Of a stretch of DNA of 64,000 nt, positions 57,077 through 62,001 are shown piece by piece. The first letter of the stretch is position 1, and every line of letters begins with the position of its first letter. The notes under the pieces are model-generated. The model worked only from the letters and a program-made list of their open reading frames with translations. It did not search any database and was not told the DNA's origin. Made by a program: the position numbers and the translations under genes. This DNA comes from Pleomorphomonas sp. (GTDB taxonomy: Bacteria; Pseudomonadota; Alphaproteobacteria; Rhizobiales; Pleomorphomonadaceae). The stretch covers positions 1-64,000 of the forward strand of contig JAUVXG010000001.1 in the NCBI GenBank assembly GCA_030603685.1, in the 5' to 3' direction.

Positions 57077-57820
57077 TCACGACTTCAGGCACTCGACATA
57101 GGCACCGGACTGACTGACCCGACGCTCGATGATGCGGGCCAGGGTCTTCTGTGCCCGACTTGGCTTCAGAGGGTTGCGAATGGCAGGATTGGGCAGCGCG
57201 GCGGCGATCAGCGCCGCCTCGCGCCGGCTCAGCTTCGACGCCGGCTTCTTGTAGTAATACTGGGCAGCCGCCTCGACGCCGTAAACGTTAGGGCCGAGTT
57301 CGGCGATGTTGAGGTAGATCTCCAGCGTCCGCCGCTTCGACCAGACGAGGTCGGCATAAAGGGCAAGCGGTATTTCCAAGCCTTTGCGGATGTAGGATCG
57401 AGACGGCCACAGGAAGACATTCTTCACCGTCTGCATCGTGATGGTGCTCGCCCCGCGGTTGGGACCGCCATCGCGGCTCAGCACCGATCGAAGCTGTTCC
57501 CAGTCGACGCCGTCATGAAAGCAGAACTGGCCGTCCTCGCTCATCACCACGGCCTGCCTCATGCTCGGTGCGATGTCATCGAGATCGACCCACTGGCGAC
57601 TATACCCCTGGAAACTGAGAAGATCGCCGACCATCAACGTCGATACCGGCCGAACAAAAATGTAGAGCGGCGTCAGAACAAAGGGCAGGATGACGACCAC
57701 CGCTGCGGCGATCGACAGCCTTCTGAGCCAGATCCGCCAGCCAGATCGCCTCACAGCAGCCGCCTCCTCGTCGTCCGCCATCGACTCGCCCTCGGCCATC
57801 GCCTCGCTGAGATCGCTCAT
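57077..57820 (-). CDS. mtgA: Monofunctional biosynthetic peptidoglycan transglycosylase
   Basis: Inner-membrane family GT51 enzyme of 247 residues polymerising lipid II glycan strands. Signal-anchor at about 33-53 (LSIAAAVVVILPFVLTPLYIFV), then GT51 motifs: VVMSEDGQFCFHDGVDW (catalytic Glu of EDxxF), NRGASTITMQTVKNVFLW, KRRTLEIYLNIAELGPNVYGVEAAAQYYY and LSRREAALIAAALPNP. ATG at 57820. Cytosolic N-terminus is acidic. Confidence 0.95.
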   Translation of the reverse strand: MSDLSEAMAEGESMADDEEAAAVRRSGWRIWLRRLSIAAAVVVILPFVLTPLYIFVRPVSTLMVGDLLSFQGYSRQWVDLDDIAPSMRQAVVMSEDGQFCFHDGVDWEQLRSVLSRDGGPNRGASTITMQTVKNVFLWPSRSYIRKGLEIPLALYADLVWSKRRTLEIYLNIAELGPNVYGVEAAAQYYYKKPASKLSRREAALIAAALPNPAIRNPLKPSRAQKTLARIIERRVSQSGAYVECLKS

Positions 57821-57981
57821 GCCCCACCGCCTGTCGCCGCCTCATCAACCAACCGCGCCGGGCCGGCAAACGAGGGATAAGACGGTCGTTGCCCACCCCG
57901 CGCGCCGCGATCGCAGATCAATGCGCGCGACAGCCTGTCGATGCGGCAGTTGCTCGCATTTTATACAGACATGCCAAAAAT

Positions 57982-57987
57982 TTGACA
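57982..57987 (+). promoter_or_regulatory. Candidate -35 hexamer of the small RNA
   Basis: TTGACA, perfect consensus. At 17-bp spacing the -10 reads ACATGA, poor, and at 16-bp AACATG; alphaproteobacterial promoters tolerate weak -10 elements. Predicted start near 58017. Confidence 0.35.
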
Positions 57988-58016
57988 TGGCGCAAATTGA
58001 GGCAACATGAGACCTT

Positions 58017-58128
58017 TGACTTGTGAGCGCTGCTTCGTCGGTCTTCCGTCTGGATCTTCCTCCTGATCCACCGTGGCACTCCAGCTTTCCTCCCAGAACT
58101 CAGGCCGGTAACCCCGGCCTGTTTTTTT
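58017..58128 (+). ncRNA. Candidate trans-acting small RNA with anti-Shine-Dalgarno motifs
   Basis: A 388-bp gap between mtgA and putA holds a compact RNA-like unit. TGGATC-TTCCTCCT-GATCCA (58051-58070) is a 6-bp stem presenting TCCTCC in its loop. A second, mainly unpaired, TTTCCTCCC follows at 58086-58094. The unit ends in a perfect terminator with seven T. Rhizobial alpha-r type and 'cuckoo'-like sRNAs show exposed UCCUCC loops that block ribosome binding to ABC-transporter mRNAs; I see the likeness but assign no family. No good ORF is here. The rest of the gap (57821-57981 and 58182-58208) shows nothing I can name. Confidence 0.55.
58101..58128 (+). terminator. Rho-independent terminator of the candidate small RNA
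   Basis: CAGGCCGG-TAACC-CCGGCCTG followed by seven T. A perfect 8-bp stem with a GC-rich base. No gene on the plus strand lies upstream within 7 kb to need it except the small RNA. Confidence 0.9.
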
Positions 58129-58157
58129 GCGCGGAATCCTCGGTCCGGCAAGCATGG

Positions 58158-58181
58158 AAAAGCCGGAGATCGCTCCCCGGC
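58158..58181 (-). terminator. Rho-independent terminator of putA
   Basis: On the minus strand GCCGGGGA-GCGA-TCTCCGGC (one G-T pair) then TTTT. Eight-pair stem with a GNRA-like tetraloop, 28 bp after the putA stop. Confidence 0.75.
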
Positions 58182-58208
58182 CTTCCGCCCCCCTGCTTTT
58201 ATCCTTGA

Positions 58209-61200
58209 TTAGTCGTCGCCCATGGCAACCAGCGTCGCGTTGCCGCCAGCCGCCGCCGTGTTGATCGACACCACCTGTTCCAGGGCAAACCGGGTGAGAT
58301 AGTTCGGGCTGCCCGCCTTGGGGCCGGTTCCGGACAGACCCGACCCACCGAAGGGCTGGGAGCCGACCACCGCGCCGATCATGTTCCGGTTGACGTAGAC
58401 GTTGCCGACCGGAAGTCGCTCGACGATGCGCTTCACCGTCGCCTCGATGCGCGAATGAATGCCCAGGGTCAGGCCATAGCCGCTCACCGCGATGCTCTCG
58501 ATAACCCTGTCGAGATCCTTCGCCTTGTAGCGGACGACGTGCAGCACCGGACCGAACACCTCGCGATCCAGCGCCGCCGCGTCGGGCAGTTCGATGATCG
58601 TCGGCGCGAAGTAGGTTCCCCCGGCCAGCGTTCCGTCCGGCACGTCACCCGAGAACAGCACGCTGTCCTTGCCCTTCCATGCCGCCACGTGAACGGCGAG
58701 CTTTTCGGTCTGCTCACGATCGATGATCGGCCCAACGTCGGTATCCGGCCGTCGCGGGTCGCCGACCTTGAGCTCCGCCGCCGCTCCCTTCACGAGATCG
58801 ATCATGTGGTCGGCCACATCGTCCTGCACGAAAAGGAGCCTGAGCGCCGAACAGCGCTGGCCGGCCGAACGGAAGGCGGAGGTGATGACGTCGTCGGTCA
58901 CCTGCTCGCCGAGCGCCGTGGCATCGACGATCATGGCGTTGAGGCCACCGGTTTCGGCGATCAGCGGCACGATCGGTCCGCGCTTGGCGGCCAGCGCCCT
59001 GTTGATGGCGAATGCGGTGTCTGTCGAACCTGTGAAGGCAACACCGGCGATGCACGGATCGGCAGTGAGCGCTGCGCCGGCCGTGCCGTCGCCGACGAGA
59101 AGGGCCAGCGCCGAGGCAGGCACGCCGGCCTCGTGCAGCAGCCTGACGGCCATGGCGCCGATGAGCGGCGTCTGCTCCGCGGGCTTGGCAACCACCGAGT
59201 TGCCGGCCGCGAGCGCGGCGACGGTCTGCCCCATGAAGATCGCCAGGGGGAAGTTCCAGGGGGCGATGGTCGCGAATACGCCCCGACCACGGTAGGCCAG
59301 CCGGTTTTCCTCGCCGGTCGGCCCGGGCATGGCGATGGGCGAGACAAACAGTCGCCGCGCCTCGGCGGCATAGTAGCGACAGAAGTCGACCGCCTCGCGC
59401 ACTTCCGCAATGCCGTCGGACAGTGTCTTGCCGGCTTCGAGGCCGAGCACGGCAAGGTAGGCGGGGAGCCTGTCCTCGAGAAGATCGGCCGCCCGTTCGA
59501 GCACTGCCGCACGGGTCTCGGCCGGCGTTTCGGACCACTGCCGGAAGCCCGCGACGGCCGACGCCACAGCCTTCCCGGCGACCTGGGCATCGGCGTCGAT
59601 CGCCTGCCCGATCGCCGTCTTGCCATCCACCGGTGACAAAAGAATGCGCGGCGAACCGGCAACGTCCGCGCCATCGATAATCGAGGCGGCCGTGCCGAAA
59701 TCGCTTCCTGCCGCGGCGGTGGCGGCCAGCAACGGTTCGAGCGCCTGTTCGTCGGCCAGTTCCACCCCGCGCGAGTTGCGGCGGGCGCCGAACAGATCGG
59801 CAGGCAGCGGAATGCGGGCATGACGGGCGCGTTCGCCGCCATCCAGCACGTCGGCGGGACGCTTCAGCAAGGTCGAGATCTCCACTTTGGCATCGCCGAC
59901 GGCGGCGACGAAGGACGAGTTGGCGCCGTTTTCCAGAAGGCGGCGAACGAGATAGGCGAGAAGGTCCTTGTGACCGCCGACGGGCGCATAGATGCGGCAG
60001 GGCTGACCGCCCTTCTCGGTCACCTCGCGGTAGAGCGTGTCGCCCATGCCGTGCAGCCGCTGGAACTCGAAATGACGGTCGGCACCGGCGATCTCCGACA
60101 CCTCGGCCACCGTCAGCGCGTTGTGCGTCGCGAACTGCGGATAGAGACGCGGACGGGCGCTGAGCAGCTTGTCGGCACAGACGAGATAGGAGAGGTCCGT
60201 CGACGCCTTGCGGGTGAACAGCGGATAGTCGTCAAGGCCGCGCTCCTGGCCCCGCTTCATCTCGGTATCCCAATAGGCGCCCTTGACGAGCCGAACCATG
60301 AACCGACGATTCAGGCTCTCGGCGAGCTCGATCATGTAGTCGATCACCGCCGGCGCCCGCTTCTGGTAGGCCTGCACGGCAAGGCCGAAACCGTCCCAGC
60401 CGGCCAGCGACGGATCGGCGGCAACGGCGGCGATGACGTCGAGCGACAGCTTGAGGCGATCCGCCTCCTCGGCATCGACCGTCAGGTTGAGATCGTGGGC
60501 CTTCGCAGCCCGCGACAGCTCCAGGAGTTTCGGCACCAGTTCGGCCATCACGCGCTCGGCATTCAGCGCCTCGTAGCGCGGATGCAAGGCCGACAGCTTC
60601 ACCGAAATGCCAGGCCGGGCCGGCAGAGCCTCGGAACCGGCCGACCGGCCGATCGCCTCGATCGCCTTGGCATAGTCGGCGAAGTAACGCTCCGCATCGG
60701 CCGCCGTGCGGGCGCCCTCGCCCAGCATGTCATAGGAGTGGCGATAGCCCTTGCCGGCCAGGCCGCGGGCGCGTGACAGCGCCGCCTCGATCGAGGTGCC
60801 CAGCACGAACTGGTGTCCCATGATCTTCATCGCCTGCCGCGTGGCGGCGCGCACCGGCGGCATGCCCAGACGCTTGACGAGGCCGGTGATGACGTTCTCG
60901 GGCGTCTCCCCAGGCTGCAGAACGCGCGTCGTGACACCGAGCGCCCAACCGGACGCCGCCACCAGCCAGGGGTCCTCGCCCTTGCCATGAAAGCCGAAGG
61001 CGGCCGAGGCGAGCTTGTCCTCGATCAGCTTGTCGGCGGTAGCGCCATCGGGCACGCGCAAGAGTGCCTCGGCCATCACCATGATGGCGAGGCCCTCGCG
61101 CGTCGTCAGCGAATAGGCCTTCAGAAAATCCTCGACACCGCCGATGGCCGACTTGCCGTCGCGAATGGCAGTAATGAGGCGGCTGGCATGCGCATCGACG

Positions 61201-61325
61201 CGCGCCCGCGCCTCGGGGCTCTCGGGTAGCGCTGTCAGGAGACGCCGGACCACCTCCGTTTCGTCTTCCGCATAGGGCGACGAGAAACACGGAGCCCGGC
61301 GGGGCTCGGAAAGAACTGCAGACAT
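58209..61325 (-). CDS. putA: Bifunctional proline dehydrogenase / L-glutamate-gamma-semialdehyde dehydrogenase PutA
   Basis: 1038 residues. Oxidises proline to glutamate: FAD-linked PRODH (about residues 150-480; MRLVKGAYWDTEMKRGQE, RLYPQFATHNALT, MGDTLY) then NAD-linked aldehyde dehydrogenase (530-990; FATIAPWNFPLAIF, VAFTGSTDTAF, catalytic Cys in SAGQRCSALR). No N-terminal ribbon-helix-helix, so it is the non-autoregulatory type A; control is by the divergent Lrp-type gene. ATG at 61325. Confidence 0.95.
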   Translation of the reverse strand: MSAVLSEPRRAPCFSSPYAEDETEVVRRLLTALPESPEARARVDAHASRLITAIRDGKSAIGGVEDFLKAYSLTTREGLAIMVMAEALLRVPDGATADKLIEDKLASAAFGFHGKGEDPWLVAASGWALGVTTRVLQPGETPENVITGLVKRLGMPPVRAATRQAMKIMGHQFVLGTSIEAALSRARGLAGKGYRHSYDMLGEGARTAADAERYFADYAKAIEAIGRSAGSEALPARPGISVKLSALHPRYEALNAERVMAELVPKLLELSRAAKAHDLNLTVDAEEADRLKLSLDVIAAVAADPSLAGWDGFGLAVQAYQKRAPAVIDYMIELAESLNRRFMVRLVKGAYWDTEMKRGQERGLDDYPLFTRKASTDLSYLVCADKLLSARPRLYPQFATHNALTVAEVSEIAGADRHFEFQRLHGMGDTLYREVTEKGGQPCRIYAPVGGHKDLLAYLVRRLLENGANSSFVAAVGDAKVEISTLLKRPADVLDGGERARHARIPLPADLFGARRNSRGVELADEQALEPLLAATAAAGSDFGTAASIIDGADVAGSPRILLSPVDGKTAIGQAIDADAQVAGKAVASAVAGFRQWSETPAETRAAVLERAADLLEDRLPAYLAVLGLEAGKTLSDGIAEVREAVDFCRYYAAEARRLFVSPIAMPGPTGEENRLAYRGRGVFATIAPWNFPLAIFMGQTVAALAAGNSVVAKPAEQTPLIGAMAVRLLHEAGVPASALALLVGDGTAGAALTADPCIAGVAFTGSTDTAFAINRALAAKRGPIVPLIAETGGLNAMIVDATALGEQVTDDVITSAFRSAGQRCSALRLLFVQDDVADHMIDLVKGAAAELKVGDPRRPDTDVGPIIDREQTEKLAVHVAAWKGKDSVLFSGDVPDGTLAGGTYFAPTIIELPDAAALDREVFGPVLHVVRYKAKDLDRVIESIAVSGYGLTLGIHSRIEATVKRIVERLPVGNVYVNRNMIGAVVGSQPFGGSGLSGTGPKAGSPNYLTRFALEQVVSINTAAAGGNATLVAMGDD

Positions 61326-61497: not shown

Positions 61498-62001
61498 ATG
61501 GCGACAACAGGGGCTGACCGTTCTCATCGCAGCCAGGATATTCCCGGCCTCGATCGCATCGACCGCCGAATTCTCGCCGCACTTCAGGAAGACGGCCGGA
61601 TCACCAACCTGGAACTGGCTGAGAAAATAGGCATGTCTGCGACGGCCACCGCCGAACGCGTCAAACGACTGTCGCGCGATGGATTCATTCTCGGCTATAC
61701 AGCGCGCCTCGACCCTCTGCACCTTCAGCGTGGCCTGCTGGTCTTCGTCGAGATCAAGCTCGACCGCATGAATCCCGAGGTGTTCACCACCTTTGCCGCC
61801 GCGGTAAAGAGGGCGCCGGAAGTGCTCGAGTGCCATCTGATCGCTGGCGGTTTCGACTATCTGGTCAAGGCCCGCGTTCGCGACATGGAGGCCTACCGCG
61901 AGTTCCTGTCCGAGGTTCTGATGACGTTGCCGGGGGTGCGGGAAACGCACACCTACCCGGTGATGGAGGAGGTGAAGAACACCACCGTGCTGCCGATATG
62001 A
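61498..62001 (+). CDS. putR: Lrp/AsnC-family regulator, PutR-like
   Basis: 167-residue regulator: N-terminal helix-turn-helix (LDRIDRRILAALQEDGRITNLELAEKIGMSATATAERVKRLSRDGFILGYTARL), then a RAM/effector domain (LLVFVEIKLD, VLECHLIAGGFDYLVKARVRDMEAYREFL, TYPVMEEVKNT). It is divergent from putA across 172 bp, the usual PutR arrangement, so proline-responsive activation of putA is inferred. Confidence 0.92.
   Translation: MATTGADRSHRSQDIPGLDRIDRRILAALQEDGRITNLELAEKIGMSATATAERVKRLSRDGFILGYTARLDPLHLQRGLLVFVEIKLDRMNPEVFTTFAAAVKRAPEVLECHLIAGGFDYLVKARVRDMEAYREFLSEVLMTLPGVRETHTYPVMEEVKNTTVLPI

Follow-up and report, generated by a model that had tools for sequence, protein, structure and literature searches.

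Genetic context of the mtgA–putA gap

The window, a 64,000-nucleotide stretch of a 4.75 Mb genome whose closest relatives are Pleomorphomonas species (Alphaproteobacteria, Hyphomicrobiales, Pleomorphomonadaceae), contains a 388-base gap between mtgA and putA. The features in and around this gap are listed in Table 1. A preceding sequence-only reading had described a TTGACA element, a 6-bp hairpin with an anti-Shine-Dalgarno (anti-SD) motif in its loop, a second, unpaired motif and a terminator with seven T, and all of these were found where it had placed them. It had also stated that no protein gene on the plus strand could be served by the terminator, which agrees with the minus-strand orientation of both neighbors. 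A leader or riboswitch of a plus-strand gene was rejected, as no such gene lies downstream and the sequence continues into 3 kb of putA antisense instead.

Table 1. Features of the mtgA–putA region (positions in the window).
Feature	Position	Strand	Description
mtgA	57077..57820	-	Transglycosylase (PF00912); divergent neighbor of the sRNA, synteny anchor
Promoter-like conserved stretch	57981..58010	+	TTTGACA (TTGACA at 57982-57987, -35-like), then TGGCGCAAATTGAGGCAACATGA; identity 0.83-0.85 (13 genomes)
sRNA gene as modeled (R1)	58007..58128	+	Defined by conservation, covariance model and fold
Helix P1, 5' strand	58021..58033	+	TTG-T-GAG-C-GCTGC, pairs with 58073-58084 (GTGGC-A-CTC-CAG)
Anti-SD hairpin	58051..58070	+	Stem TGGATC/GATCCA (58051-58056 with 58065-58070), 8-nt loop TTCCTCCT (58057-58064), presenting UUCCUCCU
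Second anti-SD seed	58086..58094	+	TTTCCTCCC in an unpaired linker, presenting UUUCCUCCC
Rho-independent terminator	58101..58128	+	CAGGCCGG-TAACC-CCGGCCTG + T7; 8-bp stem, 5-nt loop
putA	58209..61325	-	Convergent neighbor of the sRNA
Lrp/AsnC-type regulator gene	61498..62001	+	Beyond putA

The presence of a promoter at TTGACA is graded as no more than probable, since a promoter search at the locus found no consensus -10 element and no sigma-70 pair after it, and since TTGACA is retained in nine of the 13 aligned genomes, the other four having TTTAGCA or AGAATA. A conserved ATTGAGGCAACATGA at 57996-58010, immediately 5' of the sRNA, could serve as a binding site or as an atypical -10 region. 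On the minus strand, putA probably has its own terminator, GCCGGGGA-GCGA-TCTCCGGC-TTTT at 58160-58190, which is distinct from that of the sRNA; it was recognized by eye and is absent from the list of the terminator scan.

Conservation and folding of the RNA

In a nucleotide search, each of the 13 other genomes of the genus group (Pleomorphomonas and Oryzibacter) proved to carry the segment, at 76-100% identity and next to mtgA. Both neighbors were confirmed in 12 of the 14 genomes, window included; the fragments read from two relatives (L019 and L021) showed mtgA only, so that putA was confirmed in 11 relatives and the window. The sequence-only reading had named loss of the stem and the UCCUCC motifs in relatives with conserved synteny as the observation that would speak against an RNA. 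Instead, all 14 genomes retain the stem, the two motifs and the terminator.

The mean pairwise identity among 13 genomes, calculated in 15-nt bins, is 0.79-1.00 throughout 57981-58130 and falls to 0.36 and then 0.33 in the two bins just 3' of the T-run. It is 0.27-0.44 at 57891-57935 and 0.62-0.81 at the start of mtgA, while positions 58079-58108 are invariant across the genus group. It is this conservation, not the count of motifs, that indicates that the arrangement is more than chance.

Four of the six pairs of the anti-SD stem have changed on both sides with pairing kept, giving GGGTC/GACCC (L019), AGATC/GATCT (Oryzibacter, L021) and GACCG/CGGTC (L022), and the loop CCTCC is kept in all. 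The covariation score of the structure was not reached by any of 500 shuffles, and structures shifted by one to three columns scored far worse. Judged from these alignments, the pattern is that of a selected RNA hairpin that displays a fixed loop. The longer helix P1 is paired in 98.6% of the alignment cells, with variation confined to one side.

Folding, one of the checks proposed in the sequence-only reading, gave -38.8 kcal/mol for the 114-nt RNA 58015-58128 (z = -3.57), and none of 200 shuffles was equally stable. A longer stretch including upstream DNA gave an unremarkable fold (z = -1.66); the choice of transcript start therefore matters, and the result agrees with a start around 58010-58020. 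This is the likely transcript start, and the corresponding length is about 110-120 nt. In the predicted architecture, two hairpins, a small one and the anti-SD hairpin, lie within P1, which is followed by the open linker with UUUCCUCCC and then by the terminator.

These observations bear on two other explanations of the conserved segment. The first is that it serves merely as a transcriptional stop, which would either end read-through arriving from the direction of mtgA or act as a bidirectional putA terminator, with no regulatory RNA made. The perfect terminator does lie close to the 3' end of putA; however, its T-run is on the plus strand only while mtgA and putA are both on the minus strand, and putA appears to possess a hairpin-plus-T stop of its own (about 58160-58185, minus strand). 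Moreover, conservation extends beyond the stem over about 150 bases up to the TTGACA-like element, and a covarying anti-SD hairpin would not be expected of a bare terminator, which makes this explanation very improbable. The second is that a small protein is encoded, since the ATG at 58007 opens MRPLTCERCFVGLPSGSSS followed by a stop, or that a longer overlapping frame is real. Several genus members do keep the frame open, but a 1-nt deletion shifts it in one relative (L018) and a stop occurs at codon 4 in Oryzibacter (L021). In addition, substitutions fall equally on codon positions 2 and 3, and constraint tracks the stems, the loops and the terminator. The frameshift and the stop codon largely refute a small open reading frame, and we assign this explanation hardly any probability. 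As judged by sequence comparison, the locus is thus a real, selected sRNA gene, the transcription of which we infer.

Distribution of the sRNA

A covariance model of the RNA (R1) found at least one copy in 19 of 20 Pleomorphomonadaceae genomes, with scores of 103-154 bits within the genus group and of 24-49 bits in four other genera. Among the latter, the copies in G014, G018 and G019 adjoin mtgA, while no mtgA was present within the 7-8 kb read around each of the copies in G016 and G017, and in none of the genera examined outside the genus group was putA found beside the RNA. Retention of the first anti-SD hairpin is not clear in the outgroup genera, two of the loci (L024 and L025) having no CCUCC at that place. 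A second, weak R1 match in G016 (L110) proved on inspection to be a terminator.

No convincing orthologue was detected outside the family among 249 genomes sampled from the order. Four of the matches there (L111, L112, L113 and L115) were recognized by inspection as terminators only, and a fifth (L114) looks like a true αr8 RNA. Similarly, the 30 mtgA loci read revealed no mtgA-linked copy in other families of the order, the window and G014 apart. An exact 24-nt core was found in 11 records among 85,462 one-per-species GTDB genomes, all from Pleomorphomonas, Oryzibacter and soil metagenome-assembled genomes; the named carriers are P. oryzae, P. koreensis, P. diazotrophica, P. carboxyditropha and Oryzibacter oryziterrae. 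We found no sRNA work on Pleomorphomonas in the searchable literature, and with this locus the genus gains a well-conserved sRNA gene that had not been annotated.

Relationship to known alphaproteobacterial sRNAs

The sequence-only reading had allowed for a new RNA or for a diverged representative of a known family, and both halves of this statement proved apt: no Rfam family matches the locus at the gathering threshold, and the 3' half resembles MmgR/αr8. In the Rfam comparison, another of the proposed checks, the best sub-threshold match was suhB/MmgR (αr8, RF00519), which spans UUUCCUCCC, ACU and the terminator and reaches 23.5 bits where the cutoff is 41. This score is non-significant alone because plain terminators elsewhere in the genome score 26-30 bits. 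Weak suhB matches on two other contigs (C25 and C127) were indeed dismissed as plain terminators without a seed. Orthologues in related genomes score 26.6-37.6 bits, and every one scored falls below the Rfam threshold.

The Caulobacter αr8 RNAs SisA-D share the 10-mer UUUCCUCCCU ahead of the terminator, and SisA represses mRNAs through this 10-mer, a point mutation in the site abolishing repression (PMC12559287). In the published description of αr8, the 10-mer is single-stranded and lies 3' of a weak hairpin, together with a Rho-independent terminator (PMC12559287). The locus RNA has the same arrangement: an upstream hairpin, a single-stranded seed with UUUCCUCCC, an ACUU/ACUC element and a terminator. 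Its linker UUUCCUCCCA matches nine of the ten bases of the 10-mer, the last seed base being A instead of U. The mtgA-linked orthologue in G014 (R1 score 44 bits) carries the exact 10-mer in UUUCCUCCCU-GACUU and reaches 37.6 bits with the suhB model; it is a useful bridge between the window RNA and αr8. The core and score of this orthologue, together with an order of seed and terminator that matches published αr8, strengthen the link to αr8 despite the 23.5 bits at the locus itself. In the G014 copy (L108, G014:C8 1505-1625), the P1-type helix comprises some 15 pairs of unrelated sequence, and CUACCUCCCU lies in the large loop of the RNA.

Given this resemblance, the locus might simply be a diverged MmgR copy, to be filed as αr8 without qualification. 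The matching arrangement of seed and terminator, the near-threshold score of the G014 orthologue and the occurrence in Caulobacter of αr8 paralogues with unrelated promoters (PMC12559287) would fit such a classification. Yet all scored orthologues remain below the Rfam threshold, and the RNA measures about 115 nt compared with 77 for αr8, with an extra 5' domain formed by P1 around the hairpin and with UUUCCUCCCA in place of UUUCCUCCCU. Furthermore, αr8 copies adjoin an N-formylglutamate amidohydrolase (FGase) gene in most species, whereas the neighbors here are mtgA and putA. Finally, the genome retains a separate bona fide αr8, which is FGase-linked and scores 64.2 bits (G000:C84:1939-2015; L083 940-1016, minus strand). 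We therefore regard an unqualified αr8 assignment as quite improbable. The canonical αr8 copy has a second CCUCC motif just upstream, in the hairpin GCCC-GCCCTCCTT-GGGC.

AbcR RNAs (αr15) carry two anti-SD motifs, have the same mode of action as SisA and are 114-120 nt long (PMC7143759), and their motifs M1 and M2 bind targets (PMC5461406). The locus RNA is likewise a three-stem RNA whose two CU-rich anti-SD motifs both lie in unpaired stretches, as in αr15. It resembles AbcR1 and AbcR2 in length (114-120 nt, assuming a start around 58010-58020), in its three-helix layout and in the ABC-transporter and solute-uptake targets to be expected. The αr15/AbcR model (RF02345) gave no match at the mtgA–putA locus, and the true AbcR of this genome lies beside a LysR-family gene and scores 44.3 bits against a cutoff of 40 (G000:C74:4799-4933; L086 1300-1434, minus strand). 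The linker before the terminator of this AbcR, GCATTCCAAAACTTA, is without a UUUCCUCCC-type motif.

An anti-SD motif in the loop of a stem of variable sequence also recalls αr14 (NfeR1) and the 'cuckoo'/CcsR RNAs. However, αr14 presents CCUCCUCCC in each of its three hairpins, in contrast to the UUCCUCCU loop and unpaired UUUCCUCCC of the locus, and CcsR RNAs have a DUF1127 gene, not mtgA, as their linked neighbor. Identity with αr14/NfeR1 and with the cuckoo RNAs was excluded because the locus does not display an identical CCUCCUCCC in every hairpin loop. SorY of Rhodobacter (RF02651) scores 15.3 bits where the cutoff is 111, a weak likeness that lies in the linker and terminator.

As the genome holds both a true αr8 and a true αr15, the locus represents a third RNA and not a missing canonical copy. 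Its best reading is a third, lineage-specific anti-SD trans-sRNA of the αr8/αr15 group. More precisely, we consider it, with a probability of roughly 0.78, to be a free-standing gene for a trans-acting sRNA of about 110-120 nt, restricted to Pleomorphomonadaceae and related to αr8 (MmgR/SuhB/SisA) and αr15 (AbcR) as an anti-SD regulator. This assignment rests on computation, namely on conservation, structure, covariation, strand, distribution and seed-complementary sites 5' of start codons; within it, transcription, Hfq binding and repression are the parts that we infer. The locus is new and the mechanism ordinary; the RNA is a relative of known alphaproteobacterial sRNAs and not a new kind of system.

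For a more specific proposal we see even odds: that the RNA constitutes a separate, undescribed sRNA family of Pleomorphomonadaceae, which arose as an αr8 duplicate, became joined to a new 5' domain that brought a separate anti-SD loop, and has its own expression signal and a position linked to the peptidoglycan enzyme gene mtgA. If so, these bacteria would possess a third parallel regulator of the ribosome sites of sugar-uptake genes. The seed module of αr8/αr15 appears to be reused here at a different locus and under a new 5' domain, beside two canonical copies, and the locus offers a clean case for asking why alphaproteobacteria retain several anti-SD RNAs with overlapping seeds.

Proposed mode of action and candidate targets

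By analogy with SisA and AbcR, an RNA that begins around 58010-58020 and ends at the Rho-independent terminator would use its two exposed seeds, UUCCUCCU of the hairpin loop and UUUCCUCCC of the open linker, to pair with purine-rich, GGGAGGAAA-type ribosome-binding sites. Pairing would block translation initiation, and mRNA decay would probably ensue. Hfq, which is encoded in the host genome, would probably bind at the U-rich tail. Alternatively, the RNA could act as a sponge or decoy, its CU-rich seeds titrating a G/A-rich regulatory RNA that otherwise binds MmgR or AbcR, with no direct repression of mRNAs. RNA-RNA networks on this seed do exist, since the sponge CrfA of Caulobacter binds to the αr8 10-mer (PMC12559287), and αr8 and αr15 RNAs are also present in the genome. 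Nevertheless, the known RNAs with such seeds target mRNAs, and we consider a sponge unlikely.

For the preferred reading, a trans-acting repressor, the predicted targets are mRNAs with GGGAGGAAA ribosome sites, probably those for solute-binding proteins of ABC transporters and for sugar-catabolic enzymes. The genome holds 14 instances of GGGAGGAAA-N2-9-ATG and none of the reversed pattern, and ten sizeable reading frames lie behind these sites. Nine of these are solute-uptake, sugar-use or carbon-use genes, encoding three solute-binding proteins, an ABC ATPase, RhaA (L-rhamnose isomerase), an FGGY sugar kinase, a zinc-binding dehydrogenase, a GlcNAc 2-epimerase family protein and a LUD protein; the tenth encodes an M16 peptidase. 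A control with a different strong SD pattern yielded four usable genes only, two of which are also metabolic, too few for an enrichment to be claimed, and the apparent preference for such targets is suggestive only. Duplex energies of the whole RNA with the target sites were uninformative, the method ignoring folding within each RNA.

The candidate targets would be shared with MmgR and AbcR, which would both recognize similar sites. Eight of the ten candidates retain the GGGAGGAAA pattern in one or both of two further species, in which it also precedes genes for a sugar-binding protein, a PfkB kinase, CstA and a xylose-isomerase-like protein.
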